64,000 nt of DNA from Bordetella sp. 02P26C-1 (GTDB lineage: Bacteria; Pseudomonadota; Gammaproteobacteria; Burkholderiales; Burkholderiaceae_B). The notes below the pieces were generated by a model that did not search any database, had not been told where the DNA came from, and saw only the letters and a program-made list of their open reading frames with translations. The DNA lies in contig NZ_WSJB01000005.1 in NCBI RefSeq assembly GCF_009763255.1, forward strand, positions 124,001 through 188,000. Direction: 5' to 3'. A program made the position numbers and the translations under genes. Shown piece after piece: positions 17,924 through 45,140 of the stretch (position 1 is the first letter of the stretch; every line of letters begins with the position of its first letter).

Positions 17924-18008
17924 GCCCGGGTGGTGAAATTGGTAGACGCAGGGGACTCAAAATCCCCCGCCGCAAGGCGTGCCGGTTCGATTCCGGCCCC
18001 GGGCACCA
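17924..18008 (+). tRNA. tRNA-Leu (anticodon CAA)
   Basis: An 85-nt tRNA with encoded CCA. The acceptor stem GCCCGGG pairs with CCCGGGC before ACCA. The anticodon stem GGGGA/TCCCC encloses the loop CTCAAAA, giving anticodon CAA (reads UUG). The long class II variable arm (CGCCGCAAGGCG) and the T arm CCGGTTCGATTCCGG are as expected for leucine. Its 3' 54 bp are the attachment site of the genomic island and are restored exactly by the island end. Confidence 0.97.
17955..18008 (+). repeat. attL: 54-bp direct repeat in the 3' half of tRNA-Leu
   Basis: The 54 bp from the anticodon loop to the CCA end are identical to 43556-43609. Sequence identity breaks at both sides (17954 G versus 43555 A; 18009 G versus 43610 C). 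Tyrosine integrases of islands typically recombine within the anticodon or T arm of such a repeat. Confidence 0.95.
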
Positions 18009-18092
18009 GTCTAAATTTCCTCGTATTTACAGGCATTTAGCTGGATTCAAAGCCTCTCCCCGTCTCTGGGGGATTTTCCAAGTTTGTGAGCC

Positions 18093-18112
18093 AGGTACAG
18101 TTTCAGTACAGT
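18093..18112 (+). promoter_or_regulatory. Candidate arm-type integrase binding sites, left end
   Basis: AGGTACAGT at 18093-18101 and CAGTACAGT at 18104-18112 are spaced 11 bp apart, just before the integrase gene. The same AGGTACAGT word occurs near the right end at 43428-43436. A shared word near both ends of an island is what arm-type integrase (or excisionase) sites would look like. Confidence 0.45.
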
Positions 18113-18151
18113 GGCGAAGCACCGCGTGCATTTTCCGGAGCTTTCAAACAC

Positions 18152-19219
18152 ATGGCTACTATCGTTAAGACATCCTCGGGCACTTGGAAAGCGCTCATTC
18201 GGAAGACCGGCTGGCCAACCACGGCCAAAACATTTCGCACCAAGCGCGACGCGGAGGACTGGGCACGCCGCACGGAAGACGAGATGGTGCGCGGCGTGTA
18301 TATCCAGCGCGCGCCGGCGGAACGCATGACTGTAGAAGCAGCCCTGACCCGTTACCTCAAAGAAGTCACGCCAACCAAACGCGCCTCAACGCAGACAGGA
18401 GAACACAAGAAAGCGCAAGTTCTGATCAGGCACCTTGGCAAATACTCGCTGGCCGCCCTCAACGCTGAAATCGTTGCCCAGTTCCGCGACACTCGGCTAG
18501 CGGGAGATGCTGACGATAGCGGCAAGATCATTCCGCGCAGCAACAACACAGTACGCCTGGAACTAGCACTCCTCAGCCACCTGTTCACTGTAGCAATCAA
18601 GGAATGGGGTATAGGCCTCCCCTCCAACCCTGTAGCCAATATTCGCAGACCGTCTCCTGGTGCGGGGCGAAATCGACGGCTGACACCAGCAGAGAATAAC
18701 CGTCTGTTGGCGGCCGTAGATGCGTACTCGAATCCGATGTTTAGCTGGATCGTTCGTATTGCTTTGGAAACGGGGATGCGGCTATCGGAGATCGGCGGGT
18801 TGCGGCTTGGCCAGGTTGACTTGCAGAAGCGAATCGTAAGGCTGGACATCACCAAAAACTCATCCCCCCGAACTGTACCTTTGACAAGAGCAGCTACAGT
18901 CGCCTTTCAATCGGCCATCAACAATCCAATTCGGCCAGCTGAGACAGATCTAGTATTCTTTGGTGAGCCGGGGCGAGACGGTCTGCGAAGACCTTATTTG
19001 TTTGACAAGGCGTGGACTGATGCAAAGAAAGCCGCTGGCTTGGTGAATTTCCGATTCCATGACCTGCGACACGAAGCTGTTAGCCGATTAGTGGAAGCAG
19101 GGCTATCAGATCAAGAAGTGGCCGCAATCAGCGGGCACAAGTCTATGCAAATGCTGAAACGGTATACGCATTTGCGGGCTGAGGATTTGGTAGAAAAGCT
19201 GGATAAGCTTGGGTCATAA
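18152..19219 (+). CDS. int: Tyrosine-type site-specific integrase
   Basis: A 355-residue phage-type integrase from the ATG at 18152 (MATIVKTSSGTWKALIRKTG), preceded by GGAG. A longer in-frame start adds 22 unlikely residues. An N-terminal arm-binding domain is followed by a core-binding SAM-like domain (residues about 55-160). The catalytic domain carries Arg in GMRLSEIGGLRL, the HDLRHE box, GHKSMQ and the Tyr in LKRYTHL. It lies 143 bp from the tRNA end, reading inward, the normal place for a tRNA-targeting island integrase. Confidence 0.96.
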   Translation: MATIVKTSSGTWKALIRKTGWPTTAKTFRTKRDAEDWARRTEDEMVRGVYIQRAPAERMTVEAALTRYLKEVTPTKRASTQTGEHKKAQVLIRHLGKYSLAALNAEIVAQFRDTRLAGDADDSGKIIPRSNNTVRLELALLSHLFTVAIKEWGIGLPSNPVANIRRPSPGAGRNRRLTPAENNRLLAAVDAYSNPMFSWIVRIALETGMRLSEIGGLRLGQVDLQKRIVRLDITKNSSPRTVPLTRAATVAFQSAINNPIRPAETDLVFFGEPGRDGLRRPYLFDKAWTDAKKAAGLVNFRFHDLRHEAVSRLVEAGLSDQEVAAISGHKSMQMLKRYTHLRAEDLVEKLDKLGS

Positions 19220-20049: not shown

Positions 20050-21225
20050 TTGAACGGAATCAGAGGTGCGACGGAGCTTTTGTCCGTCGCAAACAATCCG
20101 AAGTACTCAGAGACCGGTGGTGGGCACGGAGCCAAGGGCGTAGACTTTGCGCGCTGGTGGGCTGTCGTCCGGATGGTGGAGTTGGAGAAGGCCAATGAGC
20201 CGGATTTCCTCCTCCTCTTTGAATCCGTTCAGGACGTTGCAGAACTAGATTCTGCGACCGAGCCAACACGGGCTAGGGTTTACCAAGTCAAGAAGAAGGA
20301 CGCCGGGACTTGGAGCTGGTCTGTGCTCACAGGTACGGTCGCTCCCAAGGGCGCATCGACCGCTCCAAAGAAGCCCACCAAAGCCCCCGCCGCAACTCGA
20401 AAGGCGCTGGACTTCAAGAAGGTCCAAGGCTCCGCACTCGGCAAGCTACAACTCAGCCTGAACGCATTCACGGCGCTGTCTGTCGAAGGCGTATTCCTTT
20501 CAAACGCGGGCTGCGACTTCCCACTTGCAGGAGGCGGATCCGCAGCTACTACTTTGCCCTGCACACTCGCAGACTTGGCTGCCGACCATGTTCAGTTGCT
20601 GACCGACGCTTTCGCCTCGTTGTCGACAGACGGTTCGCCACCTGATTTGACTCGGATGAAGCTGCAGAAGGTCGCTATACATCCCGACAATCTGAATGCA
20701 CCGGCGATTGCCGCAGCGCTTGAATTGCTAATCGAGCGCAGCCCATCACATGCCGGCCAGGCGAGGGCCTTCGTAGAGTCTTTGGTGATGAAGATTTCGC
20801 CGCTGACGCGTGGAACAGACTGCTGCCAATCATTCGACGAGCTTGTCAAAGAACGCGGTTTTTCGCGAAGAGCATTCATGGGTGCTCTAGCAGCCCTCGA
20901 GGCCGTGCCCGACCGCAGCGCCTTGCTTAACGATTTTTTGAACCAACTTCAAGCTGAAGGCGTGGACTTCATGACCATCTCGTCGATCCGCGTCGCAGCC
21001 ACGCGAGCCCAGCAAGATCGACTCAGCGGGGGGACTGACCTATCCCGCGAAATCGACCAATTCAGCGATGCATGGCTCGCGTCAAATCCGCCTATATCCA
21101 AACTTCGGCCCTACACTGAGGCCGCCCTAACCGCGCTCAAGGCCCAATTCGGCGCACAGCGCGATAACGACCTGGTTGCCCGGTTTGTCATGAGAGCCAT
21201 AACGAAATGCGTGGACCAGAACTAA
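20050..21225 (+). CDS. Cap4/DUF4297-like dsDNA nuclease subunit of a two-gene SMC system (LmuA-like)
   Basis: A 391-residue protein starting at TTG, 5 nt after a strong GGAGG RBS. The first 80 residues (ETGGGHGAKGVDFARWWAVV, then PDFLLLFESVQDVAEL and ARVYQVKKKDAG) fit the DUF4297/Cap4 nuclease fold: a GG-x-GxxF start, an E...D pair and a QxK catalytic strand. The remaining helical part is unknown. The next gene, 33 bp on, is an SMC/Rad50-like ATPase. This pairing resembles Lamassu LmuA-LmuB and ABC-3C systems, in which the ATPase senses foreign DNA and unleashes the nuclease. Assignment rests on motifs and synteny only. Confidence 0.7.
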   Translation: MNGIRGATELLSVANNPKYSETGGGHGAKGVDFARWWAVVRMVELEKANEPDFLLLFESVQDVAELDSATEPTRARVYQVKKKDAGTWSWSVLTGTVAPKGASTAPKKPTKAPAATRKALDFKKVQGSALGKLQLSLNAFTALSVEGVFLSNAGCDFPLAGGGSAATTLPCTLADLAADHVQLLTDAFASLSTDGSPPDLTRMKLQKVAIHPDNLNAPAIAAALELLIERSPSHAGQARAFVESLVMKISPLTRGTDCCQSFDELVKERGFSRRAFMGALAALEAVPDRSALLNDFLNQLQAEGVDFMTISSIRVAATRAQQDRLSGGTDLSREIDQFSDAWLASNPPISKLRPYTEAALTALKAQFGAQRDNDLVARFVMRAITKCVDQN

Positions 21226-21258
21226 GACGCCTCGTCCGAAGCCTGAGAACAAAAGACT

Positions 21259-26300: not shown

Positions 26301-26924
26301 AAGCTGCCCGAAGGACTGGAACCAAGCAAGCGTCGAATACTGATAGCCGAAGGAAAAATCACATTCACTAAGGAAAGCTTCGATGCGCTCGCTGACAGTA
26401 AGGATTTGCAGGTGCTATTCGTCGCTGCCAACAGCGACGAATATCTGGCAAATCCCAACGGCTTTGCACTCGACGACGACTTCCGAGAGGATCTTTTACG
26501 ATCTGACATTGATAATGTCGCCAAGCTCAAGATAGTCGACCTGATGGACCTGGAGGCGCTCGTGGACCTTCCTGAGCGATCAGCACTAATCGGCCCAATT
26601 ATTAATAGCGCAGACGCCATAATATCCAAACTTGATGGGAATAGCGCCCAAGCCCTAATAAAATATTCCGAACCTATAGCGATACAAATTGCACTCTTTA
26701 ATAAATATCACTCTCTTATGAGTGATGACGACGTGCGTAACGTCTTAGCTAGCCTACCGGAGCCATATTCCGAAATAAAAACAGGGTACAAAACTCCCAG
26801 GCTAAAGAAAAATCCCGAGAATCTGGAATTTGTCAAATGGCTCGAATCAAGAAATATTATCTCATCATGGGGTGAGGATCGCCTCTTTATCGACGATATA
26901 AGAGTGAATCTCTATAGAAGTTGA
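23313..26924 (+). CDS. Large KAP-family (YobI-like) membrane P-loop NTPase
   Basis: A 1203-residue protein. Walker A GPYGSGKSS is at residues 71-79 and Walker B VIIEDLDRFND at about 255-265, the DLDRF form typical of KAP NTPases. Between them are two transmembrane helices (about 147-167 and 180-205), the intra-domain membrane insertion that defines this group. It resembles Bacillus YobI. The roughly 800-residue C-terminal part is helical, without recognisable domains, and probably forms a repeat-like sensor or scaffold in the cytoplasm. KAP NTPases recur in phage-defence loci, so defence is a reasonable inference. Its codon usage is A+T-rich compared with the host. Confidence 0.8.
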   Translation: MIKTIISLMHGLANSLNRILSWLESKDRSADIQAKFVDLAPTDKADNAGVYSEAILFATNNTKVANIALTGPYGSGKSSIIQTFLKKYRRPALHISLAAFVPEADSEGKKVSRQEIERSILQQMLYGADTNKLPLSRFKRIQSPGVWSIFKSFYITFGILALWYVFSRRADIVSGTFFTPLALSNGFNLGICAFAVTFLWATLHHFYVASFGLSLKSISLKDVEIRPAHDDQTSILNRHLDEILYFFQSTNYDLVIIEDLDRFNDTEIFVTLREINSLVNENAGVKRTIRFLYALRDDMFVNTDRTKFFEFIIPVIPIINTSNSIDMVLEQGRRLSLDERLDRQFLREVSRYLNDLRLIQNIFNEYAIYVANLETDGENLHDANKLLAILIYKNVYPRDFEQLHRGAGNFAAVLNRQDELIRQGETGCRAEIAELEKRIEVAEQQTPLDLRELRQIYAMALIEKLPESAISVSHDRQTWIPLVQLVGHDAFEQLIDTPRLFCRYPNGTSSVVDSSKLQTERAPLKSYLQRRDEIESKLADNKKKMLGRLDDLRLKIPALRMAKLNELLRLNADHVEELFKGFEENGELARFLILEGHLDDTYYQYTSLFHSGRLSPNDNRFLIQIRAFVTPEPNFPLDNPKEVIAAMRDEDFRQSYVLNVKLVDNLLNDRSLYFDQAQKLFELLSSEFESCEDFFSAYYTGGLEVSGFLQGLVNAWNKLVPTAIASPNNISHVTQLIANLPLSSLKTLARNFDELSEFVAANLPEILVHLPELAPERLECLDFEVQDLAAIKEHSEIVRFMFQEGLYGLTITNLEYVYQEILGQNDLKSMRERNFTAIRSTNNATLMKRVERDFNLYLRDILLELQRNSEEDVPAILAILGQNTLDQDDLRTFLERQTTRLPTLEGVPEKLHATLFQLNAIEATWMNCLAFMESDGFEADSLIGYLDRDVVRTAILQHPIPSNPDSLTLRQFLINAGSLSDAAYKDYAHALPKPFKKLPEGLEPSKRRILIAEGKITFTKESFDALADSKDLQVLFVAANSDEYLANPNGFALDDDFREDLLRSDIDNVAKLKIVDLMDLEALVDLPERSALIGPIINSADAIISKLDGNSAQALIKYSEPIAIQIALFNKYHSLMSDDDVRNVLASLPEPYSEIKTGYKTPRLKKNPENLEFVKWLESRNIISSWGEDRLFIDDIRVNLYRS

Positions 26925-29607: not shown

Positions 29608-32457
29608 TCAACGCTCCATAGATGCTTTCGCGCTTTCCTTATCCTGTTGAGGTGCACGAGGACTCCACAACGAATCTGAACTTCCACGCACGAGATCTAA
29701 TGCTGCATACTTCGCATTTGCACGCATGATCGCTGTCGGCAGGTTCTCCCGGTCATTCGTGAAAATCCGGCTCTGAAATCGAGCACGAGAGATAGCGACA
29801 TAGTAGGCATCCTTGGCAGTCGTACGACTCTCGGTATTAAGGTCAATCAAAACACGATCAGCCGTCAAACCCTGGCTGCTATGAGCCGTCGTTGCATATG
29901 CGTGAGACAAGTGCAGCGGTCTATCCGTAGTCAGATCCACACGGCGCGTATCGCTGACCAGTGTCACCGTCCCCGCATTAACGTTTTCAACCTTGAAACG
30001 ATCACCATTGGCTAGGTCTAAAGAGGCGTCATTACGTGTGATCCTCACGACATCACCACGCGACAACTCGGTCCTATCCAATTCGTAGACTGAAATTTTG
30101 CTATGTGTCAGAGGGTTGAACCGTATCACCTCATGAGACCGCTCTGAGCGAACGGTGAGGCGGTTCCCCGGGCCCGTGTCCTCCACCCGATACAGCTCGC
30201 CACGTTGCAACCCAGACCTCTGGTAATCCTTTTCAGGTTGAATCAGATCCCCTACCTGATAGTTCTTGGAAAATCGGCGCTCGGCCTGAGTAGTGTCGCG
30301 CCGAATGAGCGTATCAACTTCCTTACCCCGGCCTGCCGTACCTATGTTTTCGCGCACAATCTTGTTGATTTCGCGCCGAGCCTCATTAGTACCGGAAACA
30401 ATGATCGTTTCATTACGATCCTTCGGCTCGAGTTCGGTGTACGCAGAGGCGATGGCTGCACGGCGTTCGAAATGATCTTTGATCTCGATAATATCTGCGA
30501 TTCGGGAGAGCGAGCTCGACGTATCGCCCTTGGCTGCCAGTTCAACGGCTTTTCTCAGCATGGGGTCCCTTTGACGCTGGATTTCGTCCATATGGGCGGT
30601 TTTCATTCCTGCCGCCTGTAACTGGTCGAATGGTCGTCCGGCTTCAATCGCTTTCGTCTGTGCCGTATCACCCATGAGCACCACGCGTGCACCTGCCTTT
30701 TCGGCGAGCCTCAAGGCTTGCTCCATCTGGCGGGTTGGGACCACACCCGCCTCGTCGATCACCAGTACGGTTTTTGCGTCAATGTCTTTATCCTTGGCCC
30801 GTAGGAACGACGCGAGCGTGTTTGCCTGCACACCGAGTTCTTGCAAGGCTTTGACCTGACTCCCGTAGGGAGCCAAAGCGCGCACGGCGTAGCCTTGCCC
30901 TTCGATCATGCCTTTCGCCGTCTCGAGCATGTGGCTTTTGCCGACGCCAGCAAACCCCTGTACGCCGATAACCCGATTGTCGCTCGATACCATCAGTTCG
31001 GCGGCTTGGCGCTGCCCGGTATTTAGGTTGGTTTTGGCCAGTTGTGCACTGGCGATCTCGGAGGGCATGATGGCAGCGACAGCCCCACGCCCATCCCGCT
31101 CGATATGCAAGATGTGCTTCTCTCGCTCTAGTGCGGTTTGCGTCGTGTATCGAGCTTCGCTCGCGACAAGGCCTCCATGCAAGATCGCCGTATCGACACG
31201 GTCACGAGCAGCGATGCTCTGGACTCCCTTGGCCTCAATCCGGGCAATCCACTCTGCTCGCGTCTGACCTTGTGCATCGCCCTGCCCAGTCTGTCCTGCG
31301 GGCCGGTATAGGGGCTGTTCCTGAACAAGATAGCCGGATGCTGTCTGCGTCGCGATTTCCCTTTGGATGTCCGCAAGTTGAGCACCGCCTATAGCGTGCT
31401 TCATGGCCGTATCTATTAGTTCGCGGCTCCCCATGACTGCCTGGCGTTCGGTCAAATGATTGACGGCGTAACGCACGGCCCGTTTTGCAGCTTCATCAGC
31501 GGGAACAAATGCTCGCCGATCAGCCGCCCCTAATTCGGTGCGGCCACGTTCGGGTCCTGCTCCTGACCACTCCCGGCGGTGAAAATCGATTCCTAAATCC
31601 TTTGCTTTCTCCTTCCATTCGGTACGAAGCGCTTCGCGCTCTGCCATCATTTTTTTAGGCCGCGTCTGCATGGCAGCCTGCTGTTTCTCAATAGCACTGG
31701 CCGTCTCACGAGTTAACCCCTTCGCCGCCAATCTTTCCTTGATTTGTTCACTACGCTGGCTGAAGCCTTCAATTTGACTCCGTTCGATGTGGGCCAGTTC
31801 GAAATTGCCGCCTCGTTCAAAGCGCAAGCGGTAACCGAGCTTCTGCAGTGCTTCTGCCAACTCATTGTTATAAACAGAGCCGAGATAGCGTGTCGATTTC
31901 ACAATCTGGTCATTCTTGAGCGCCCGCCACTGTCCATCCGCTCGCCGTGTCACGTTCATAATGACTGCATGGGTATGAAGCTGCGGATCACGTTCACGGC
32001 TCGTCTCATGGCGGAATTTAGCGATGACGAGATTCCCCGTTGTCTCGATTCGTGATTTTCCTTTTACCTTCTCCCGTGCCTGTGCAAGTGTTTCCGCCAC
32101 GTCCAATGTCCGGGCCACGGCCCTGTCATGAGCTTTAACGATTTCAATGTCGCCTGACACCAGCGCCTGCAGAGAAACACTTTTTGGTGCGGAAAAGGTC
32201 AGATCAATTCCTATCCGGATATTTGAGTCCTGACGCGTAGCGGCACGGCTAATGCGGACGTCTGGTGCAATCTGCCCTGCCAACAACTCTCGAAATCGCG
32301 TACGATCGATCTCACCGCGCAGACCCAATTTGGCGGCCCCCTTTCCTTGCCACTCAGACGACTCACCATCTTTTGCGTGATAGTCGTCCGCACCATCCTC
32401 GTAGTAACTGGCGGCGCGGCCGATGTCCTGCCGCGTTAGAACCTTGTGGCTGAGCAT
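29608..32457 (-). CDS. MobF-family conjugative relaxase/helicase (TrwC/TraI type)
   Basis: The relaxase nicks oriT and unwinds the transferred strand. From the ATG at 32457 the protein is 949 residues, close to R388 TrwC. In this numbering the catalytic tyrosines fall at Y18 (with Y19) and Y26 of MLSHKVLTRQDIGRAASYYE and the following DGADDYHAK, matching TrwC. The metal-binding His cluster is in HETSRERDPQLHTHAVIMN. The helicase part has Walker A GVQGFAGVGKS (about residue 500) and Walker B VLVIDEAGVVP. A TTG five codons upstream is less likely as start. An R388-like oriT lies about 1 kb upstream, with three small genes between. Confidence 0.95.
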   Translation of the reverse strand: MLSHKVLTRQDIGRAASYYEDGADDYHAKDGESSEWQGKGAAKLGLRGEIDRTRFRELLAGQIAPDVRISRAATRQDSNIRIGIDLTFSAPKSVSLQALVSGDIEIVKAHDRAVARTLDVAETLAQAREKVKGKSRIETTGNLVIAKFRHETSRERDPQLHTHAVIMNVTRRADGQWRALKNDQIVKSTRYLGSVYNNELAEALQKLGYRLRFERGGNFELAHIERSQIEGFSQRSEQIKERLAAKGLTRETASAIEKQQAAMQTRPKKMMAEREALRTEWKEKAKDLGIDFHRREWSGAGPERGRTELGAADRRAFVPADEAAKRAVRYAVNHLTERQAVMGSRELIDTAMKHAIGGAQLADIQREIATQTASGYLVQEQPLYRPAGQTGQGDAQGQTRAEWIARIEAKGVQSIAARDRVDTAILHGGLVASEARYTTQTALEREKHILHIERDGRGAVAAIMPSEIASAQLAKTNLNTGQRQAAELMVSSDNRVIGVQGFAGVGKSHMLETAKGMIEGQGYAVRALAPYGSQVKALQELGVQANTLASFLRAKDKDIDAKTVLVIDEAGVVPTRQMEQALRLAEKAGARVVLMGDTAQTKAIEAGRPFDQLQAAGMKTAHMDEIQRQRDPMLRKAVELAAKGDTSSSLSRIADIIEIKDHFERRAAIASAYTELEPKDRNETIIVSGTNEARREINKIVRENIGTAGRGKEVDTLIRRDTTQAERRFSKNYQVGDLIQPEKDYQRSGLQRGELYRVEDTGPGNRLTVRSERSHEVIRFNPLTHSKISVYELDRTELSRGDVVRITRNDASLDLANGDRFKVENVNAGTVTLVSDTRRVDLTTDRPLHLSHAYATTAHSSQGLTADRVLIDLNTESRTTAKDAYYVAISRARFQSRIFTNDRENLPTAIMRANAKYAALDLVRGSSDSLWSPRAPQQDKESAKASMER

Positions 32458-32468
32458 GACGACAATAC

Positions 32469-32744
32469 TCAATCAATTGCTTTCAACTTTCGATGCATTG
32501 GATAGACGACATGACGATATCGCCACTGAAGCCAAGAAAGTGCACCGATGACGATACCCATCAAAAGCAGCTTTCCCGACCCCATATCACCGGAAAATAT
32601 TCCCTCAAGAATCTCTCGTGCTTGCAGCAATAGTATTGCCATATAGAGGCCACCCATTACCAGGAAAAGGGCTGAGAACCCTTGTTCGGCGTTCAAGCGA
32701 AGACGCTCGGTGAAACCTATTGATTTCGAATTACGTTCGGCCAT
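32469..32744 (-). CDS. Small two-helix membrane protein in the mobilization operon
   Basis: A 91-residue protein from the ATG at 32744, behind GGAG with 6-nt spacing. It has two hydrophobic segments (about 27-46 and 56-76) and charged ends. No family is recognised. It occupies the place where the coupling protein gene (trwB) lies in R388, between the RHH accessory gene and the relaxase. It is far too short to be a coupling ATPase. Confidence 0.65.
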   Translation of the reverse strand: MAERNSKSIGFTERLRLNAEQGFSALFLVMGGLYMAILLLQAREILEGIFSGDMGSGKLLLMGIVIGALSWLQWRYRHVVYPMHRKLKAID

Positions 32745-35247: not shown

Positions 35248-35324
35248 AGCTGTAAATATTTTCTTTACAGCTACTGACACTGCCAAAATACAAAGCGCTT
35301 TTGGATTGCACAATCCAAAAGCGC
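35248..35324. other. Two perfect hairpins in A+T-rich intergenic DNA
   Basis: A 14-bp perfect inverted repeat (35295-35308 with 35311-35324, two-base loop) and a 9-bp one (AGCTGTAAA at 35248-35256 with 35264-35272) lie between the nuclease-helicase gene and the eex operon. The first may terminate the leftward defence operon, since it is followed on that strand by TTTGTATTTT. The rest of 35152-35402 is A+T-rich and should hold the eex operon promoter. A 69-codon ORF through the hairpins is not credible. Confidence 0.5.
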
Positions 35325-35402
35325 CCTCATTGTTTTCACGATTTTTATCCATAGTCACGACACCGTGAATACGGACAACAGCAGCAATACTCAATCAAAC
35401 TT

Positions 35403-37223
35403 TCAGATGATGCCGCGCCGACTCTCCGAGAGTAAGGGAGCACAACCTTGGGCGGGATCGCTTCTTATGTACCTTCTTAAGGCATTCCGCAACCCTGAAT
35501 CTGCTGCATAAAGAACCACACCTTTCTTAGCACGCGTCATGAGAACGTAGTAGATATTTCGAACGGCACGGGCGAATTCATGCCGCTTTTGCTCCTCTGG
35601 CAAGTTGAGCCTGTTCAAAGTCTCCGTGAGCTGCTTGTACTGCTGGGCCGCCGGCCGCACGCGAAGGCCCTTTCCATCCACAAAAGCGAGATCTTCTCCA
35701 ATCAACACGCCCACATAATCGTACTCAAAGCCTTGCACCGTATAGATGGCTCCCACTTCTGCTATCAAACCAAAGCCTCTGTTCCATTCTGCATAGGCTC
35801 CATTGGCATTCCAACGCGCTTTCCAATCGCCGATTTCGATATCGTAGCCTCGACCTGGCGTGCGAAAGGTATTCCAGGGCCAGCAGTATCCGCCGACCAC
35901 ACGACAGGTCGTATTGCCTTGAGCCCGGTTCTTCAGAAACTGCACCATCTCTTCTGGTGAGTCGGCCAGAAGTACCTCATAACGCTCGTTCGACTCTAGT
36001 GTTTCAAGCTCACCATGATTCAGAAAACCATCCACCCACTGTAGGTACTTACCAGCATCCTCGCAACGCAACTGCTTCACTAGAGTTCGCTCGAGAATAT
36101 GCATACCGGCACGGGCAGCCTCGTCCTGGATGTGATGGCTGCGGCATGTCTCGTCGGGATGCAGCCACTGGTTATCGTCTATGAAAAAGACCGCAAGCCG
36201 CTTGTTCCGCAAGAGTCGTTTCAGTCGCTCTTTGGCCAGACGGTGGGCTTCGTCGACTACCAAATACTCCGTCTCTGCAGTTCCGTCAGAATAGAAATCT
36301 AATTGCTCGACACAAGCCTTGATTGCAGCTGACCGGACGTGATACCTGGGATTCTTTCCTCGCTCCATCAAGTGTCTGATCAACAACATTGCAAGCACAG
36401 TTTTCCCTGTACCTACGATGCCATTGATGATGACACATGTTGGCCCCTCAACAGCATCCAAAGTTTCGACTATGTCTTTGAAAATCTCGATCTGCTCTGG
36501 CGATGGATCGAAAAGAGCGCTGCAATTGAGCTTATCGCTAAAGTTGGCAATGAACGAGCTTGAATATCTCAATTTAGGTGCCGTAAGGCGATTCAATCTC
36601 TCACTGGGCATCTGCAGCTTCGCTAATAGTTGGACAACCTCCTCACGACCTATATCGCGGGTTACCAGGAGAGCGTGACGTAGATGGTCTTGAAACTGAG
36701 GGCGTCTAAGAAGGTCGTTCTCGATTTCCCGGTACTCGTGCAGATATGCCACGGCATGTATCTTCGGAGCGAGGTCGCCGTAGTCCAACAACTGCTCAAG
36801 TGCCGTGCTGTACACATTAGCCTGTTCACAAGGGTGGTCAGCACAATATGGTTCGTGCGCATCGACAGTTAACCATCCCATGTCAAAGGTTTCGTTGAGG
36901 GTCACGCTGCCTTGGGACCATTGTTTAAGCTCGATCACGATGATATGCGTCTGGCCCGCCGCATCGTCTCCTACCAGCAAACAATCAGCCCTCCGTGTTC
37001 CCAACGGCATGGGATATTCGATCAGAATATGGCCGTCTATAGACAGAGGTTCCAATAACCTAGCCAAGGCAGGGAGAGACTTTTTCCACGATGCCATCTC
37101 TTGAGGAGAGACACTACCTTGGTCGAAGACCTCTCCAAAGCGCTGAACTAACAGATCAACAAAATCCTGGTTCGTTGCTCGCTTGCAAAAATCTTTGATC
37201 GTGAGGGTTGCCAGAGCTGCCAT
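35403..37223 (-). CDS. PD-(D/E)XK nuclease fused to DUF2075-type helicase
   Basis: A 606-residue two-part protein. Residues about 60-110 show a nuclease-like core: RADCLLVG with Asp80 and IIVIELKQW with Glu98-x-Lys100. From about 240 there is a superfamily 1-like motor of the DUF2075/Schlafen-helicase type: Walker A NGIVGTGKTVLAM (268-276), Walker B EYLVVDEAHRL (about 318-328), FFIDDNQWL, then YTVQGFEYDYVGV and YYVLMTRAKKGV at the C-terminus. It is the last gene of a three-gene operon and starts 5 bp after the EVE-HNH gene. Such fusions are expected to cut or clear foreign nucleic acid. Confidence 0.83.
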   Translation of the reverse strand: MAALATLTIKDFCKRATNQDFVDLLVQRFGEVFDQGSVSPQEMASWKKSLPALARLLEPLSIDGHILIEYPMPLGTRRADCLLVGDDAAGQTHIIVIELKQWSQGSVTLNETFDMGWLTVDAHEPYCADHPCEQANVYSTALEQLLDYGDLAPKIHAVAYLHEYREIENDLLRRPQFQDHLRHALLVTRDIGREEVVQLLAKLQMPSERLNRLTAPKLRYSSSFIANFSDKLNCSALFDPSPEQIEIFKDIVETLDAVEGPTCVIINGIVGTGKTVLAMLLIRHLMERGKNPRYHVRSAAIKACVEQLDFYSDGTAETEYLVVDEAHRLAKERLKRLLRNKRLAVFFIDDNQWLHPDETCRSHHIQDEAARAGMHILERTLVKQLRCEDAGKYLQWVDGFLNHGELETLESNERYEVLLADSPEEMVQFLKNRAQGNTTCRVVGGYCWPWNTFRTPGRGYDIEIGDWKARWNANGAYAEWNRGFGLIAEVGAIYTVQGFEYDYVGVLIGEDLAFVDGKGLRVRPAAQQYKQLTETLNRLNLPEEQKRHEFARAVRNIYYVLMTRAKKGVVLYAADSGLRNALRRYIRSDPAQGCAPLLSESRRGII

Positions 37224-37228
37224 GCTTC

Positions 37229-38224
37229 TTAAAGAACTACGTTGTACTTCAGTGTCAGAGCTTTCAAACTCGGGAACTGGGTCTGGTCAACTGGTAGACG
37301 GATGCTAACTCCCTCGTACTGCTCGTAGATGGTACCAAAGAGCCCCTCATGAAGCTGCACCTTACCTTCCGGCGTAATCTTGAGTTGACCGAGGTCGAAA
37401 AGCGTGTGAATGTCCGCACGCAACAACAGTCCGTTCTGCACAGCGTTGGATTCAGCGCCCAGATAGGGGGCAATATGAGCGGCCTCAAGTACAGCCGCCA
37501 CGTCGCAACCCGTTACTACACATTTGCCAGCATAGGCAATGAGCAAGTCCTGACGAAACTTGGGTTGCCCCTGGCGACGTACGACTTCCCGGATTATCTT
37601 CTTACGACCGTCCGCCATGTCCGTTGGGTCAAAGACAACAGCGGCGTCAGCCTCAACTTTGGCTTGCTCTAGCTCGAGTTCAATATACGATTTCGGAATG
37701 CGGCTACGGAAGACCTGCTGGACGAACTGCTCCAAGGTTCCGTAGGCGCCGAGAATTCCTTTGACCTTATCGTCCGAAATACGGGTGAAACCTCGATAGC
37801 CTCTGTTCAGATAGTTAACGACGGGCTCACTCATCACACCGGCCTCGATGGCGTGAGGCTTGCTCAGCAGATACATCTGCTCCCAAGTATTACCCTCATC
37901 GTCATGCCGCCAGATTCGGCTTGCCAGTTCTGGGGAGATAAACTTGCCGACCACTGAAGAGAGAAACTGGTACTGATTGTCGTACACCGTCAGCACCAGG
38001 TCTCCAGCTTGCATAGACTTCCAGGTGCGCTGATTCACTGGCCCTGGTACAGCTCCCCAGGCGTAAAAGCCATCCTCGCCAGGCAGGATTGACCGATAAT
38101 AGTCCGTCTGCTCTTGCCCCAACGCCTCTTTCATCCAGTCGAAAGGCACAGGATTGAGGATCGAGTCTTTCAGGTGGGCGCGAGCATTCTTATCTCCCGC
38201 CGTAAACACGAAAATCTGACGCAT
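37229..38224 (-). CDS. EVE-like domain / HNH endonuclease (probable modification-dependent nuclease)
   Basis: A 331-residue protein. Residues 1-175 resemble an EVE/PUA-like reader domain (GDLVLTVYDNQYQFLSSVVG, ELASRIWRHDDEGNTWEQMY), a fold that flips out modified bases. Residues 225-280 form an HNH_2 nuclease: CVVTGCDVAAVLEAAHIAPY, with catalytic residues His250, Asn264 and His273 in order. This layout is that of type IV-like restriction enzymes attacking modified DNA. It sits between the MazG gene (3-bp gap) and the nuclease-helicase gene (5-bp gap), so the three should be made together. Confidence 0.82.
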   Translation of the reverse strand: MRQIFVFTAGDKNARAHLKDSILNPVPFDWMKEALGQEQTDYYRSILPGEDGFYAWGAVPGPVNQRTWKSMQAGDLVLTVYDNQYQFLSSVVGKFISPELASRIWRHDDEGNTWEQMYLLSKPHAIEAGVMSEPVVNYLNRGYRGFTRISDDKVKGILGAYGTLEQFVQQVFRSRIPKSYIELELEQAKVEADAAVVFDPTDMADGRKKIIREVVRRQGQPKFRQDLLIAYAGKCVVTGCDVAAVLEAAHIAPYLGAESNAVQNGLLLRADIHTLFDLGQLKITPEGKVQLHEGLFGTIYEQYEGVSIRLPVDQTQFPSLKALTLKYNVVL

Positions 38225-38227
38225 GGC

Positions 38228-38605
38228 TCAATAGTCAGAATACTTATCAGAGCGCCCTTTCACCACGTCGGCCGGGTACTTCAGATCGTTGAGCTTGAGC
38301 TTTTCCTCGGCTGCCTTCAGTGGGTCTATGCCCGTGACGGAACAAAAGCGCATCAGGTAGATGAACACGTCGGCGACTTCATGAGCGACAGCCTCTTTCT
38401 TCTGGTCCGAGAACGCCGAAAAGCCTTCAGCGCCATCTTGCCATTGGAAAATCTCCATCAACTCAGAGACTTCCACGCTCATGGCCATGCTCAGATTCTT
38501 GGGGGTGTGATATTTGCCCCAATTCCTAACCTCTGAAAACAGGTCTATCCTTTTGCGTAGCGCAATAAGTTGATCTGTCTCAGTCTGGGAAACGTTATTA
38601 CTCAT
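38228..38605 (-). CDS. MazG-like nucleotide pyrophosphohydrolase
   Basis: A 125-residue all-helical dNTP/NTP pyrophosphohydrolase of the MazG/dCTPase group. The Mg-binding EExxE...ExxD-type motifs are visible as EVSELMEIFQW (about residues 45-55) and HEVADVFIYLMRFC (about 74-87). The family hydrolyses nucleoside triphosphates, including modified ones. It is the first gene of the operon with the EVE-HNH and nuclease-helicase genes. One plausible but speculative role is removing phage-modified nucleotides or starving phage replication. Confidence 0.88.
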   Translation of the reverse strand: MSNNVSQTETDQLIALRKRIDLFSEVRNWGKYHTPKNLSMAMSVEVSELMEIFQWQDGAEGFSAFSDQKKEAVAHEVADVFIYLMRFCSVTGIDPLKAAEEKLKLNDLKYPADVVKGRSDKYSDY

Positions 38606-38992: not shown

Positions 38993-39235
38993 ATGGCTGA
39001 CAACGATGAGCACGAACTGAGACTACATAAACTTTATCTGATACTGAGCGCAGTTGATGACACATATCCCGGTGCTTCATCAATGGCGAGATAAGCTTAG
39101 ACGACTTTTTCGACCGCGATGTGATGCTGCGAGGCGCTCAAGGCGTGCCAATACGAAGAAGTTGAAGTGCTTGGTCCTAGTACAGGAGAGGCCGTTGCTG
39201 TTTTCTTTGTTGCACCGATCACAGGGACAATTTGC
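38993..39235 (+). pseudogene. Possible decayed small gene before the nuclease-like gene
   Basis: An ATG at 38993 behind AGAGGATC opens a good-looking N-terminus (MADNDEHELRLHKLYLILSA) that ends at a TAA after 33 residues. Protein-like sequence then continues in another frame (EISLDDFFDRDVMLRG, about 39088-39140) and returns to the first frame (CQYEEVEVLGPSTGEAVAVF, about 39146-39205). This looks like one short gene with two frame changes. I do not recognise it. Confidence 0.3.
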
Positions 39236-40678
39236 ATGACTACGGATGAACCAATTACGCTCTCGATGGCCTGGGGCATTGATCAGGACGTCATCAAAAA
39301 AGTCGGTGCAATAGACGTCACACTCAACTGTGATACGAACCTATTCATCGACCCACTCCTTTTGGCCGAATCAACAAACAAAGATTTTCGTGAATGCGCG
39401 AGTGCGGCATATGAGAGTCGATTTCATCAGCTGATCGAACTTCTAACAGCCTCAACAGCGATCAATGACGCGGCGTGGCGCGCCGCAAAGAAAAGAATCT
39501 CGTTCCACGAAATCGGCTACACCCACCTCGGCTACTCAGCAGGCACCAGCGGTTCCGGATTCGGCGACAAACTGGCGGAGAGCTTAATCTCTACTGCCAA
39601 GGAGGTTGTTAGCTTAGGTGTTAATAATCCGAATCTCTTCGTTGCTCTTGCATTGTTCGAGGACAGCGTTGGTGCTGATCGAATTAGCGATATGACTACC
39701 AATATCATCATTGAATGTCTTGCGCGATTTACGACCTCAACATGCACTCACATCAAAATAGATACGAAGTCTTTTGACATCAAGGGTAACAGCTATGATC
39801 TTCCACCCAATCCACTGAAACCGACGGAACCAATTCTCCTAGTTCCTGCTGACATTGTTAGAGACCTGCCTATCGCATCTGATTGGAGCTCTGTAAGCGC
39901 GGCAGCCCGAGAAACCGAGGATTTACGGGAACGGGTAAACGCTCATATTGGTGAAATATGGAAGGCAAAGACCCGGCGCGATAAAGAAGAAGTCCTAAGA
40001 AATGCCCTGCGAAGTAAAAAATCTTTCGATACTCTATTGGAGCTTATTCAATATGCTGCTGATGAGCCCTATGACATAGCGAACGATCATCGTGGCGAAA
40101 TATACCCGGCAGACATTCGCAGGAACATATCTAGAATCCAACCACTTGATCTACACAAGTACTCAGGTAGAAAACTGGATCTTGCCGAGGTAGACGAAGT
40201 CGTCGTAGCAATAATTGCACAATTTAAGAACCTGATAGAGGACCGTGGACTCTGGAAAGAGTTGTGGGATGATAAGCAAAAGAATGCACGCCTTGAAAAG
40301 GCTATGCAGCGCCTCTTGTACGCAGTTGCACTGTCCTATTGTGACGCAAATGACCTTGATATTTCGCCAGAGTCTGACGGCGGTGCCGGTCCGGTTGATT
40401 TCAAAGTATCCAATGGTGCAAACTCAAAAGTACTTCTAGAGTTAAAGCGCTCTACAAACTCCAAGCTTGTAGATGGATACACTAAACAAGTGAACGCCTA
40501 TCGAGCTGCCGAAGGCGCAATTCAAGCACATTATGTCGTAATTGATATTGGGGGGCTTACACCCATAAAAATGAAAGGATTGAGCGACGCTCGATCTACC
40601 GCCATCAAAGCAGGCCTTAATCCGTCGGAGATTGTAATAATCGATGGGAATATTCAAAGGTCGGCAAGCAAACGGTAG
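39236..40678 (+). CDS. Unknown protein with a C-terminal PD-(D/E)XK nuclease-like motif
   Basis: A 480-residue protein. The ATG at 39236 with AGGGA upstream gives MTTDEPITLSMAWGIDQDVI; an in-frame GTG further up would belong to the decayed gene. The N-terminal 350 residues match no family I know. Near the end, GAGPVDFKV (Asp about 388), VLLELKRS (Glu-x-Lys about 401-403) and GYTKQVNAY form the order D ... ExK ... Q expected of restriction-endonuclease-fold proteins. A nuclease role in defence is inferred from that motif and the location. The DUF4062 gene follows after 79 bp. Confidence 0.6.
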   Translation: MTTDEPITLSMAWGIDQDVIKKVGAIDVTLNCDTNLFIDPLLLAESTNKDFRECASAAYESRFHQLIELLTASTAINDAAWRAAKKRISFHEIGYTHLGYSAGTSGSGFGDKLAESLISTAKEVVSLGVNNPNLFVALALFEDSVGADRISDMTTNIIIECLARFTTSTCTHIKIDTKSFDIKGNSYDLPPNPLKPTEPILLVPADIVRDLPIASDWSSVSAAARETEDLRERVNAHIGEIWKAKTRRDKEEVLRNALRSKKSFDTLLELIQYAADEPYDIANDHRGEIYPADIRRNISRIQPLDLHKYSGRKLDLAEVDEVVVAIIAQFKNLIEDRGLWKELWDDKQKNARLEKAMQRLLYAVALSYCDANDLDISPESDGGAGPVDFKVSNGANSKVLLELKRSTNSKLVDGYTKQVNAYRAAEGAIQAHYVVIDIGGLTPIKMKGLSDARSTAIKAGLNPSEIVIIDGNIQRSASKR

Positions 40679-40757
40679 CACAAGTTTTTTATATAGCGTT
40701 CGATTAGAAACTTCACGCAGCAATAACTACAGATAAGAAAAGATAGGTGGAAGAAGC

Positions 40758-41564
40758 ATGCCATATTCAGCAACTGTGTTTAATATCCTAATCGCATCAC
40801 CTTCGGATGTGCCTGACGAGCGTCAAGCTATAGCAGAAAGCTTGCACGAGTGGAACGCGCTTCATTCTGAAAGTACGGGAAAAGTACTCCTGCCAGTGAT
40901 GTGGGAATCTCACAGCGCGCCGAGCATGGGAAATCGCCCACAAGGAATAATTAACGAACAGGTAGTAAAGTCATGCGACATGCTTATCGGAGCATTTTGG
41001 ACTCGTCTCGGCTCTCCTACTGGAGTCGAGGACAGCGGAACAGTTGAGGAAATAAAATGGTTTCTCAAGCAGAAAAAGCCTGTAATGCTCTACTACTCAG
41101 ATGCACCAGTTCAACCGAGCAAGATAGATAAAACCCAGCTCGACAAGCTCGAGAATTTCAAGAAAAGCATTCGTAATCAGGGCATACAAGAAGAATACTC
41201 TTCGATCGAGCAATTAAAAACAAAGCTTTCACGTCACCTCACCATCGTTACCAGAGGAATTTCGGTGGGAACGGTGGTAACTGCCTCAGTGGTTAGAGAA
41301 GCCAAAGAATCGACGAAACTGGCAGCCGCTTCTCCACTAAAGACAGAGCGGAGCAATGCCAGCGGCGCTACTGCCTCACTGGAAGATTACACGGACAAGT
41401 CATTCGTAGTCCGAGGCGATACCAAGCTATTAAAAGAAGAGCTAAAAGAACTAGGTGGCAAGTGGATTAAAACTCGCGAAGGAAGTTACGCCTGGAATTT
41501 TTCTAAGAAAAAGCTTGAGGCCGTAGCTGAACTACTTAGCGTCCAACCAATACTAGCCGATTAA
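40758..41564 (+). CDS. DUF4062 (TIR-like) protein with an extra C-terminal domain
   Basis: A 268-residue protein. Residues 5-120 fit DUF4062: FNILIASPSDVPDERQAIAE, SCDMLIGAFWTRLGSPTG and TVEEIKWFLKQKKPVMLYY. This is a TIR/NTPase-associated Rossmann-like fold found at the head of many defence and signalling ATPases, but here without an ATPase. A linker leads to a compact C-terminal module (DKSFVVRGDTKLLKEELKEL then GGKWIKTREGSYAWNFSKK) resembling a small domain seen in viral and bacterial DNA-processing proteins. A sensor or effector role is possible. The next gene, 45 bp on, encodes a membrane protein. Confidence 0.72.
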   Translation: MPYSATVFNILIASPSDVPDERQAIAESLHEWNALHSESTGKVLLPVMWESHSAPSMGNRPQGIINEQVVKSCDMLIGAFWTRLGSPTGVEDSGTVEEIKWFLKQKKPVMLYYSDAPVQPSKIDKTQLDKLENFKKSIRNQGIQEEYSSIEQLKTKLSRHLTIVTRGISVGTVVTASVVREAKESTKLAAASPLKTERSNASGATASLEDYTDKSFVVRGDTKLLKEELKELGGKWIKTREGSYAWNFSKKKLEAVAELLSVQPILAD

Positions 41565-41609
41565 CCTTTCTACCTTCTCCAGTCCTCCATTTCTAAGTAG
41601 TTGTGGTCC

Positions 41610-43229
41610 ATGAATCCCGTCGGAATCGACACTAGCGCACTGCTAACCATGCTGGGCTTAATCGCTGCGGTATGGGCGGTCGTGCCAAACACCGCGAGGC
41701 TCAGCTTTCGATTGAGTTTGCATTGGTTCGATTGGCTGGTCATCTGGTCCGCATTACTCATCATCCACGCCTTGTTCTTCGAGCCCGTGCTGACAGCGCT
41801 AGGATTTCCTATCCTCGGGCCATGGCTGTGGGGCTTCGACAAAGGCGCTACTCAGTATCTACTGTTCCTCGCCCTCGCCGCCTATGTTTATTTTCGAGCA
41901 AACAGGACTAAACTCAAACGCTGGAATCTCGAACTATTCGATGATCTCACCACGTCTCTATTGCACGCAGGGAGACTCGAGGACCTTGCGGAGTTATTAC
42001 ATCGCCATCTCGACTCCGCACTAGAAATCGCCTCATCAAACAGCGTGCGCAGTCGTTTTGCAGATTGTATTCGTCCGCAGTCTCCTCGTTATCAAGTTTC
42101 GTACCAAAACGGGGCCTTTGTTCGGATAGAAGATAAGCCCAGCAGCGGCGTGCTGTGTAAATGGTTGGAGTTTCGTAGATGGGCAGCAGACCTAATTAGC
42201 CCGTCTCTGTGGTCGCAGCACCGCGCCAAGATTATTTTAAGGCGACTGCTTTCGTCACGCGAACTTACTACACATCTTGCCATCGCACGCCCCTACTTCT
42301 GCATGAAAGTAATGGAATGCGCAACGCTCATGGAAGAGAGCTTTCAACACGAATTCTTTGACGCATTATTAGCTAATGGGTCCAGCATCCTCTACCACGA
42401 GCTCAAGAACAGTCACAACTTCGGTAAGGGGGGACACCGCTTGGCGCTTCCTGAAGAAAACCGCCTATTGCGGTTTTACTGTTGCGATATCAGGGTGGCC
42501 GCTCGTCTGGGAGTTTACCAATCTGTTGGCGAAGCTGTTCTTGCGAGAATTGACACAGACGAAACTCTTCATAAGAAGCTAAATGGACGTCTGTTGACAT
42601 TTCAACAGGTCGGGAAGTACCGCGACCCTGTATATGCGGGCATCTGGTTCTTTAGAATTATGGTGCTGGAAGGACTACATCAGCGTGCATCCGATCACTT
42701 GTGGCTTCACTACATGCCACATATTGCCAGCCGTCTAGTTGACCGTGCTCGCGAAGTTCGGCCAGACGATGAAAACCATGAATTTCCCACTCCACTGGCC
42801 TACTTGTTGTACGAAGTTGTTTCCGCTACTGCGGTATGGATCATAGACGCCGAAACCCTAACAAAATCTGGTGATCGACTGACTCCTGATCAACTAGAGG
42901 GAGATCATATATACATTGCCTTCGAGGCTGCGGAAGCCATTGGCCGTGTCATCCATCCGATCATAACGTCGTCTTGTGTAAGCCATCGAGTCAAGCAAGC
43001 CTTGCTTTACGTGGTACTCACAACGTTGCGTAACATTGACCAACACGAGCATTTGGCCTCCCTAAGCCAAGTGATGCGAACGCACCTTATTGAACCCTAT
43101 GGCACCAAGGAGCAACCTCCATATCTCGCGGCCTTACAGCAATGCTTCAACGAGCAAGACCCGGTACTTCGCGCCCGACTACGCTCCTTCCATGAGGAGC
43201 TCTCAGCCGCTCTCGAGGGTAACCACTAA
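41610..43229 (+). CDS. Unknown membrane protein with a large cytoplasmic helical domain
   Basis: A 539-residue protein from the ATG at 41610 (an in-frame TTG lies three codons earlier). There are three N-terminal transmembrane segments (about residues 9-26, 42-62 and 79-98). A roughly 440-residue soluble, alpha-helical region follows, rich in Leu, His and Arg, with no recognised motif. It is the last gene of the rightward group and of the island. A membrane effector for the DUF4062 or nuclease-like proteins is an attractive guess, no more. Confidence 0.6.
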   Translation: MNPVGIDTSALLTMLGLIAAVWAVVPNTARLSFRLSLHWFDWLVIWSALLIIHALFFEPVLTALGFPILGPWLWGFDKGATQYLLFLALAAYVYFRANRTKLKRWNLELFDDLTTSLLHAGRLEDLAELLHRHLDSALEIASSNSVRSRFADCIRPQSPRYQVSYQNGAFVRIEDKPSSGVLCKWLEFRRWAADLISPSLWSQHRAKIILRRLLSSRELTTHLAIARPYFCMKVMECATLMEESFQHEFFDALLANGSSILYHELKNSHNFGKGGHRLALPEENRLLRFYCCDIRVAARLGVYQSVGEAVLARIDTDETLHKKLNGRLLTFQQVGKYRDPVYAGIWFFRIMVLEGLHQRASDHLWLHYMPHIASRLVDRAREVRPDDENHEFPTPLAYLLYEVVSATAVWIIDAETLTKSGDRLTPDQLEGDHIYIAFEAAEAIGRVIHPIITSSCVSHRVKQALLYVVLTTLRNIDQHEHLASLSQVMRTHLIEPYGTKEQPPYLAALQQCFNEQDPVLRARLRSFHEELSAALEGNH

Positions 43230-43555: not shown

Positions 43556-43609
43556 ACTCAAAATCCCCCGCCGCAAGGCGTGCCGGTTCGATTCCGGCCC
43601 CGGGCACCA
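43556..43609 (+). repeat. attR: second copy of the 54-bp tRNA-Leu 3' end
   Basis: Identical over 54 bp to 17955-18008 in the same orientation. It contains the tRNA 3' half through CCA but no 5' half, so it is not a functional tRNA. It defines the right end of the island. Confidence 0.95.
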
Positions 43610-44012: not shown

Positions 44013-45140
44013 ATGAAATACGGTGAATACATCTGGCAATCGCCGCACTGGCCTGATTGGTGCTACGACCTGGCCGCCCTGGCAGAGCCTTTGGCGGCCG
44101 TCAGTCGTGCTCAAGGTCTTTTGCTTGGCCGCCTGGCAGACGTGGGAATGGCCCTGCGCGCCGAAGCCAGCTTGGCGGCGCTGACCGAAGACGTTGTCCA
44201 GACCAGCGCCATTGAAGGCGAAACGCTCAGTGTCGCCTCGGTCCGATCCTCTGTCGCACGTCGTTTAGGCGTCGATATCGGTGCATTGGCCCCCGCAGAC
44301 CGTCACGTTGACGGCATCGTCGACATGATCCTGGACGCCACCAGCAAAGCGATGGCGCCTCTTACTGCCGCGCGCCTATTCGGCTGGCACGCGGCACTAG
44401 TCCCCACAGGCTATTCTGGCATCAGTGCGATCAAGGTAGTCCACTGGCGGGATGACAGTAACGGTCCCATGCAGGTCGTCTCAGGCTCCATCGGTCGGGC
44501 AAAGGTGCATTTCGAGGCTCCGCCCGCGAACCGGCTAGCAGCGGAGATGGCACGTTTCCTAGACTGGTTGAATGACGCCTCACCGAAAGAACCCGCTCTC
44601 GTTCGCGCTGGCCTAGGCCACCTCTGGTTTGTCACCCTGCACCCCTTCGATGACGGCAACGGCCGTATTGCGCGTGCCATTGGCGACCTGCTGCTGACCC
44701 GCGCCGACGGCAGCCCCCAACGTTTTTACAGTTTATCTGCTCAGATCCAGCGGGAACGCAAAGCCTATTACGACATCATAGAACGCACGCAAAAGGGCGA
44801 CATGGATGTGACGCGGTGGCTAACGTGGTTTCTGTCCACCCTGCTAAAAGCCATCGAACACGCCCATGGCGTTCTCGATCAAGTATTCGCCAAGGCAAAG
44901 TTCTGGCAGCATGCGGCAACCATTCCGATGAATGAGCGGCAGATCAAGGTGCTGAATCGTCTGTTGGATGGATTTGAAGGCAAGCTGACGACTAGTAAAT
45001 GGGCAGCGCTAGCCAAATGCTCTCAAGACACTGCTTTACGTGACATCACAGAGTTGCTACAGCGAGGTGTTCTACAAAAAACCGACGCTGGCGGTCGCAG
45101 CACAAGCTACCAAATCCGACAGTTCCATGGGCAAGCATAA
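44013..45140 (+). CDS. Fic-domain AMP-transferase, class II (DUF4172-Fic)
   Basis: Fic proteins transfer AMP, or less often other nucleotide groups, to hydroxyls on target proteins. The 375-residue protein has a DUF4172 N-terminal helical domain. An inhibitory (S/T)xxxE(G/N) helix is seen in QTSAIEGETL (about residues 65-74), before the Fic core, which makes it class II. The active-site loop HPFDDGNGR is near 212-220, complete with catalytic His and the NGR anion hole. A winged-helix module (WAALAKCSQDTALRDITELL) closes the protein. It lies just outside attR. Target unknown. Confidence 0.92.
   Translation: MKYGEYIWQSPHWPDWCYDLAALAEPLAAVSRAQGLLLGRLADVGMALRAEASLAALTEDVVQTSAIEGETLSVASVRSSVARRLGVDIGALAPADRHVDGIVDMILDATSKAMAPLTAARLFGWHAALVPTGYSGISAIKVVHWRDDSNGPMQVVSGSIGRAKVHFEAPPANRLAAEMARFLDWLNDASPKEPALVRAGLGHLWFVTLHPFDDGNGRIARAIGDLLLTRADGSPQRFYSLSAQIQRERKAYYDIIERTQKGDMDVTRWLTWFLSTLLKAIEHAHGVLDQVFAKAKFWQHAATIPMNERQIKVLNRLLDGFEGKLTTSKWAALAKCSQDTALRDITELLQRGVLQKTDAGGRSTSYQIRQFHGQA

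Follow-up and report, generated by a model that had tools for sequence, protein, structure and literature searches.

Organization of the operon

The window analysed here is a 64,000-nucleotide stretch of the genome of Bordetella sp. 02P26C-1 (contig NZ_WSJB01000005.1, positions 124,001 to 188,000). It carries an operon of three minus-strand open reading frames (ORFs) at 35403-38605. The initial annotation had described three such genes separated by 3 and 5 bp, and the same coordinates were recovered from the ORFs. The first gene (38228..38605, minus strand) encodes a 125-aa MazG-like nucleotide pyrophosphohydrolase of dCTPP1 type, recognized by Pfam family PF12643 and by PDB matches. The second (37229..38224, minus strand) encodes a 331-aa protein with a putative YTH/EVE-like reader (residues ~1-170, predicted model) and an HNH_2 nuclease (~200-325, Pfam). 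The third (35403..37223, minus strand) encodes a 606-aa protein whose Pfam domains are a NERD PD-(D/E)XK nuclease (~40-165) and a Schlafen group 3 superfamily 1 (SF1) helicase (~240-590). A terminator-like hairpin of 16 pairs with a loop of 4 and a T-rich tail (35292..35327, minus strand) lies 75 bp past the last stop codon. The hairpin is long, yet terminator-like sites in the region were not in excess (5 vs. a shuffle mean of 4.0). Promoter-like sites likewise showed no excess in the region around the operon.

The three genes had been proposed to form a set without a name, and this view was upheld: only partial or generic matches were found in PADLOC-DB 2.0.0. The MazG-like protein had no match there. 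The reader-HNH protein matched only a generic HNH family and, weakly, REase_II. The helicase protein gave partial matches to PDC-S41, Nhi and AbiO, plus weaker ones. Identity with Nhi or AbiO was rejected, as the best stretch covers residues 243-362 only and not the full length. An exact named system for the trio was rejected by the PADLOC-DB models and by the literature. Our search revealed no paper on MazG with DUF2075 or with modification-dependent restriction, none combining an EVE domain, HNH and MazG, and none describing the gene set. Overlap with Burroughs 2015, to which the DefensePredictor paper refers for an earlier prediction, is possible, and figure 6F of the DefensePredictor paper may show a related MazG system. 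A text search for MazG gave no occurrence in the available portions of a BREX survey (PMC12839542) and a HEPN survey (PMC3710099). CMoRE / PD-T4-3 is, in the available part of PMC12923530, a type IV enzyme directed at modified phages (those with 5-hydroxymethylcytosine [5hmC] or its glucosylated form [5ghmC]). It was rejected as an identity for the trio since it is a single gene with a GIY-YIG nuclease; the main text of that paper contains neither "MazG" nor "helicase".

The MazG-like protein and the NERD-Schlafen helicase

PF12643 matched the 125-aa protein at 2.3e-12, in agreement with its earlier assignment as a MazG-type pyrophosphohydrolase. Among PDB sequences it matched 4qgp (1e-23) and human dCTPP1 (6sqw, 5.6e-16), the latter over residues 17-124, up to the C-terminal KYxD tail. 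The metal site ExxE ... ExxD is nearly invariant in the family (E45 in 65/66 members, E48 in 64/66, E76 and D79 each in 66/66). The protein thus has both the metal site and the C-terminal KY motif of the dCTPP1 type. It is a short single domain with no fused sensor. It resembles dCTPP1 and other all-alpha nucleoside triphosphate pyrophosphatases in aligning through the KYxD tail, and differs from them in sitting in an operon with nucleases. The substrates of dCTPP1 are cytosine nucleotides.

The 606-aa protein had been described as a PD-(D/E)XK-like nuclease fused to a DUF2075-type helicase, and both parts were confirmed by Pfam: SLFN-g3_helicase (PF09848) at 4.4e-61 and NERD (PF08378) at 23.7 bits, over the cut-off of 22.1. 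"DUF2075" is the name of homologues in many public records; the Pfam name is now Schlafen group 3 helicase. The concern that the nuclease residues might vary among homologues was not borne out, as catalytic D80, E98 and K100 are kept in 94/94 sequences with a residue there. The Walker A and DEAH residues of the helicase are kept in 97/97. The helicase is uncommon in a wider phylum sample (11/398 genomes, own genome included). It differs from Schlafen group 3, UvrD, AddAB and Dna2 helicases in carrying its nuclease at the N-terminus, as a NERD domain; the nuclease domain of human Schlafens is of a different type. VIA-align paired residues 40-240 of the helicase model with human SLFN11 from residue 414, but at a root-mean-square deviation of 17; judging from the models, NERD and the Schlafen linker are possibly related.

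The reader-HNH protein

HNH_2 (PF13391) matched the C-terminal part of the 331-aa protein at 3.4e-13, so the HNH half of the earlier "EVE-like reader plus HNH" description holds. The EVE half held only as a fold. Because Pfam EVE (PF01878) gave no match over the cut-off for this protein, the reader is named YTH/EVE-like (McrB type) rather than EVE. The N-terminal fold is supported by a tblastn match to the N-terminus of a McrB-like protein, and the reader model is closest to the McrB reader and VcaM4I, the nearest fold being TgMcrB. The first-ranked Foldseek match of the model was VcaM4I (6yex_A; E 8.4e-4, 261 columns, template modelling [TM] score 0.26-0.28), which the HNH part also matched by phmmer (2.3e-4). 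Reader profiles gave only chance-level matches to PDB sequences, with TgMcrB (6p0f) at E 0.5 and 0.84. We conclude with moderate confidence, from the models, that in the middle protein a nuclease is joined to a putative fold for reading modified bases.

Taken by itself, the middle gene is built like type IV enzymes of an already known kind. EVE-HNH enzymes were put forward as type IV candidates by Bell 2020 (available part of PMC7641849). One of them, VcaM4I (PDB 6yex), binds 5-methylcytosine (5mC) and 5hmC DNA and restricts T4gt, according to the available portion of PMC7897488. It has the same order of reader and HNH nuclease and a similar length (309 vs. 331 residues in the window); its base-pocket residues are W82 and Y130. 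The same portion describes TgMcrB as a reader of N6-methyladenine (6mA). The operon differs from TgMcrB / McrBC in having no AAA GTPase or McrC, and its reader is fused to HNH.

A scan of viral contigs with the window's reader-HNH protein alone gave no relative, and a search of 50,697 phage records gave 10 matches, all of which covered less than 80% of the query. In 150 whole genomes (own and relatives), only the window's own protein covers the reader domain among the matches listed. A haloarchaeal relative (L032, 5632-6999) has an SRA match (0.0012) followed by an EVE match (0.0034), each weak and short of the Pfam cut-off; perhaps this enzyme has two readers.

Occurrence of the three genes in other loci

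Genome contigs were scanned with an alignment of 11 helicases and the best 80 of 229 relatives were kept. Adding 6 loci from plasmids and 10 from genomes gave 96 loci besides the window; L062, whose helicase was not recovered, was left out. Loci found via the helicase contain it by construction. Eight loci were reached by a reader-HNH query (L032, L035, L039 and L174-L178; L035 by both queries). MazG lay within 1 kb in 5 of these, and helicase sequence was present in the flanks of 4, that of L032 being a C-terminal piece only. Six plasmid records covered at least 80% of the reader-HNH query; L032 and L039 were examined at the match, and in L033 the MazG-helicase genes lie >11 kb from the record's reader-HNH match.

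A reader fused to HNH was found in 13 examined loci (window, L152, L156, L035, L174, L175, L176, L177, L149, L077, L039, L032 and L178, the last showing it only in part). All three genes lie within ~7 kb in six of them: window, L152, L156, L035, L175 and L176. The trio is therefore not restricted to one lineage, a point left open by the initial annotation: it occurs also in a phage contig and in loci of actinobacterial type. The phage contig (L152, P2-like) has the window's gene order, with spacings of 3 and 4 bp (helicase counted from the methionine aligning with residue 1) and identities of 78% for MazG, 69% for reader-HNH and 61% for the helicase; its neighbours are P2 GpU, GPD and a glycoside hydrolase 19 gene. 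Because the same three genes recur there in the same order at 61-78% identity, the arrangement is not due to chance.

The trio is rearranged in the four loci of actinobacterial type. In L156, an IMG/VR contig with an integrase N-terminal domain, MazG overlaps reader-HNH and the helicase is divergent; its reader-HNH is 75% identical to the copy of a Streptomyces plasmid. In L035 (Nocardiopsis plasmid), MazG overlaps reader-HNH and the helicase is 3.5 kb off. MazG is split between frames in L175 (Streptomyces plasmid) and L176 (Nocardiopsis plasmid), as is the L176 helicase. In H95, a further Streptomyces record that is probably a near copy of L175, the helicase adjoins reader-HNH by coordinates. 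All six trio loci are on mobile or probably mobile DNA: an integrative island, a phage contig, an IMG/VR contig and three plasmids.

Partial combinations were also found. MazG overlaps or abuts reader-HNH in L174, as in L156 and L035. In L177 (4742-9401, Peribacillus plasmid), a 73-aa MazG-like gene accompanies reader-HNH, with a NucS-domain nuclease gene upstream. L149 and L077 have helicase and reader-HNH with no MazG within the flanks examined; of the three MazG copies elsewhere in these genomes, the two examined had no reader-HNH and no credible helicase match alongside. The closest helicase relatives after L152 are L052 and L153. L153 (1-1773; 45% identity), which has neither MazG nor reader-HNH, starts at the end of a virus contig that may have cut off its upstream genes.

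MazG and the NERD-Schlafen helicase form a widespread pair

MazG lay no more than 1 kb from the helicase in 61/96 loci, on the same strand in 61/61. A stricter non-overlap count gave 58/96 loci; a long gene drawn at random from these loci would be expected to give 6.9. Of the 83 loci flanked by 1 kb or more on either side, 50 had MazG on this count. It was upstream of the helicase in 55 pairs and downstream in 6; 21 pairs overlapped (with each ORF read from its earliest possible start), 28 were within 30 bp and 12 within 110 bp. The hosts of adjacent pairs include Woesearchaeota, Micrarchaeota, Haloarculaceae, Elusimicrobia and Verrucomicrobia, as well as spirochaetes, Bacillota, Bacteroidota, Actinomycetota and Pseudomonadota. 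Five virus-contig loci were found by the helicase: MazG adjoins it in L154, L155 and L156 (opposite strand in L156), is one gene away in L152, and is absent in L153, where the helicase is at the contig end.

These findings indicate that the conserved unit is MazG plus the NERD-Schlafen helicase, and that the adjacent nuclease varies. The earlier proposal of the trio as one set was thus borne out as to recurrence, and the trio was rejected as the conserved unit. Rather than being entirely new in kind, it belongs as one variant to a wider modular system.

Nucleases and other genes beside the pair

A type-IV-like nuclease (SauUSI-type, MrcB-HNH, HNH_2 or HNH_4) was present within 4 kb of the helicase in 23/96 loci, 18 of which hold MazG. 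Such nucleases were counted in 23 loci near the helicase vs. 2 farther out (679 vs. 524 kb searched); this gives a nominal p of 1e-4, which overstates the significance, as the seed proteins had been picked for recurring near the helicase. The most frequent operon partners besides MazG and helicase (75 genes in all) were ResIII (5), NUDIX (5), DUF3427 and PLDc_2 (4 each, both SauUSI-type), HNH_2 (4), HNH (4), HNH_4 (3), Fic (3) and MrcB_N (2). PADLOC assigned 4 of the 75 to its type IV mREase family (SauUSI-like; 2.4e-234 in L086), 4 to HNH and 5 to PDC-S07; the PDC-S07 member inspected is a NUDIX protein. As a control, 75 genes at least 4 kb off in MazG-positive loci gave no PADLOC family with more than one member, a comparison free of the seed bias, but small (75 of 174 far genes sampled). 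Both the distance count and this control remove the defence-island background only partly.

SauUSI-type enzymes (phospholipase D [PLD], superfamily 2 helicase and DUF3427, with MutT/NUDIX) share the helicase operon in six loci, all with MazG (L082, L086, L092, L094, L131 and L136). No scanned gene of the window's island is of this type. A MutT gene beside SauUSI homologues and a pfam11907 helicase-PLD + MutT pair are mentioned in the available parts of PMC7641849 and PMC5379612, respectively; a link of MazG and Schlafen helicase to SauUSI was not met in those parts. In L086, L092, L136 and L082, NUDIX, a SauUSI-like enzyme, MazG and the NERD-Schlafen helicase form a single operon. These operons hold two nucleotide hydrolases alongside two DNA-destroying enzymes; the L086 NUDIX is a PDC-S07 candidate. 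NUDIX/MutT genes lie within 4 kb of the helicase in 10/96 loci.

The host island

The window's operon is carried by a 25.6-kb integrative island between 54-bp tRNA-Leu repeats (17955-43609). The left repeat (17955..18008, plus strand) is the 3′ end of tRNA-Leu(CAA) and the right copy is at 43556..43609 (plus strand). A phage-type tyrosine integrase (18086..19219, plus strand; PF00589, 2.2e-32), a TrwC relaxase (29608-32472) and a TrbL protein are encoded in the island. The guanine-cytosine content is 0.51 within it vs. 0.62 and 0.60 outside. Lamassu genes (20050-22959; LmuA 1.6e-167, LmuB 1.8e-286) and a Tmn-like 1203-aa ATPase gene (23313-26924; 2e-79) are also present. Pfam revealed no DNA methyltransferase among the operon's three genes or the 12 other island genes scanned; the operon, like a type IV system, has no cognate methyltransferase.

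Three plus-strand genes (39167-43229) are divergent from the trio on its right side and possibly form a further defence operon. One encodes a 503-aa protein with a partial PDC-M36A match (7.5e-12), one a 268-aa DUF4062-like protein with a partial PDC-S60 match (2.3e-25), and one a 542-aa protein unmatched in Pfam, PADLOC and NCBIfam. Just beyond the right end of the island, a Fic protein (44013-45140) matches PADLOC SoFic (1.7e-39).

Proposed function and alternatives

The architecture (gene set, domains, active sites, operon, mobile location and recurrence) is well supported. From it we infer an anti-phage function, the reading of a modified base, cooperation of the three proteins and a role for MazG. 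We give about even weight to the view, drawn from sequence, that the operon is a mobile restriction module of three genes, modification-dependent (type IV-like) and coupled to nucleotide-pool control. Three features have to be accounted for, namely a nuclease that carries a base reader, a small nucleotide hydrolase (MazG) kept next to the helicase, and exchange of the nuclease among type-IV-like families; modification-dependent restriction combined with control of modified nucleotides fits all three. The Lamassu and Tmn-like genes in the same island are in favour of it. Recurrence on mobile DNA of distant microbes suggests an anti-virus module, apparently unnamed.

In such a module, a modified base of the invading DNA would be flipped out and recognized by the reader-HNH protein, whose HNH domain would cut the DNA. 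The NERD-Schlafen helicase would load on cut or otherwise unusual DNA and unwind it, and its PD-(D/E)XK nuclease would degrade the unwound DNA in the manner of AddAB- or Dna2-type machines. The dCTPP1-like MazG would hydrolyse (modified) deoxynucleoside triphosphates (dNTPs). This might keep modified nucleotides out of the host chromosome, sparing the host as a target, or might starve the invader of its modified precursor.

Several observations weigh against this restriction module. Besides the missing Pfam EVE match, the predicted reader-HNH model is weak overall (predicted local distance difference test score 52), with a poorly modelled HNH half. The reader and MazG may be directed at different bases, because dCTPP1 acts on cytosine nucleotides and TgMcrB, the nearest fold to the reader, is described as a 6mA reader. 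The trio is rare (6 loci seen, 2 with broken frames), and in 35/96 helicase loci MazG is missing from the surrounding 1 kb, some of these loci being clipped by contig ends. L174 and L177 (Bacillota) have MazG-reader-HNH with no helicase in 4-5 kb on each side, and L052 (7563-9359) is a lone helicase (50% identity) without MazG or reader-HNH; therefore no pair is obligatory. The distances of MazG and helicase are only weakly correlated (r 0.155, 60 loci, 32/2000 permutations as high), and the parts therefore seem to reassort. In L177, two annotated cytosine methyltransferases lie beside MazG-reader-HNH and fit ill with a 5mC target there.

A doubtful but possible form of the restriction module is one in which policing of the pool distinguishes self from non-self; this would amount to a new class of immunity. 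MazG, and NUDIX in sister operons, would destroy modified dNTPs so that the host genome is never marked, and an interchangeable reader nuclease and the helicase would destroy marked DNA. If so, protection of the host, the task of the methyltransferase in restriction-modification, would fall to a nucleotide hydrolase.

Nucleotide depletion, with MazG as the effector, is unlikely. The helicase-nuclease would sense phage replication or recombination intermediates, MazG would drain deoxycytidine triphosphate (dCTP), and the nucleases would help. Known depletion defences, the dCTP deaminases and dGTPases, offer a precedent, and MazG and the helicase are the conserved pair, with the reader nuclease as the variable part. 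A MazG domain is also among the predicted, unvalidated defence domains of DefensePredictor (available part of PMC13092281). However, simple depletion predicts no association with type-IV-like nucleases and NUDIX, the window's MazG has no fused sensor, and the helicase loci lacking MazG count against this explanation also.

That mobile carriers use the genes to exclude rival plasmids and phages with foreign methylation appears quite unlikely. The location of all six trio loci would agree with it; however, defence genes generally travel on such elements, so this target is not singled out. It is very unlikely that the operon serves genome hygiene, in which MazG and NUDIX would clear damaged nucleotides, and the reader nuclease and helicase-nuclease damaged DNA, without being directed at phages. 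YTH/EVE-like folds do read altered bases and NUDIX/MutT genes recur near the helicase, but the distribution is patchy and mobile (island, plasmids, phage contig), the neighbours are defence genes, and the reader domain was confined to the window's own match among those listed for the 150 genomes. Least probable is a chance neighbourhood of genes each working alone in a defence island: the island is rich in defence genes and partial combinations occur, but the gaps are 3-5 bp or overlaps, every adjacent MazG-helicase pair shares a strand, and the trio is found in distant lineages, with reader-HNH only ~25-31% identical between the window and Streptomyces/Nocardiopsis-type copies.

If the restriction module is real, MazG and the NERD-Schlafen helicase would be the shared core, in bacteria and archaea, of modification-dependent defences with an exchangeable nuclease. 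This would connect nucleotide-pool enzymes with Schlafen-type helicases and with type IV restriction, and there would be a testable answer to the question of why nucleotide pyrophosphohydrolases occur among defence genes.

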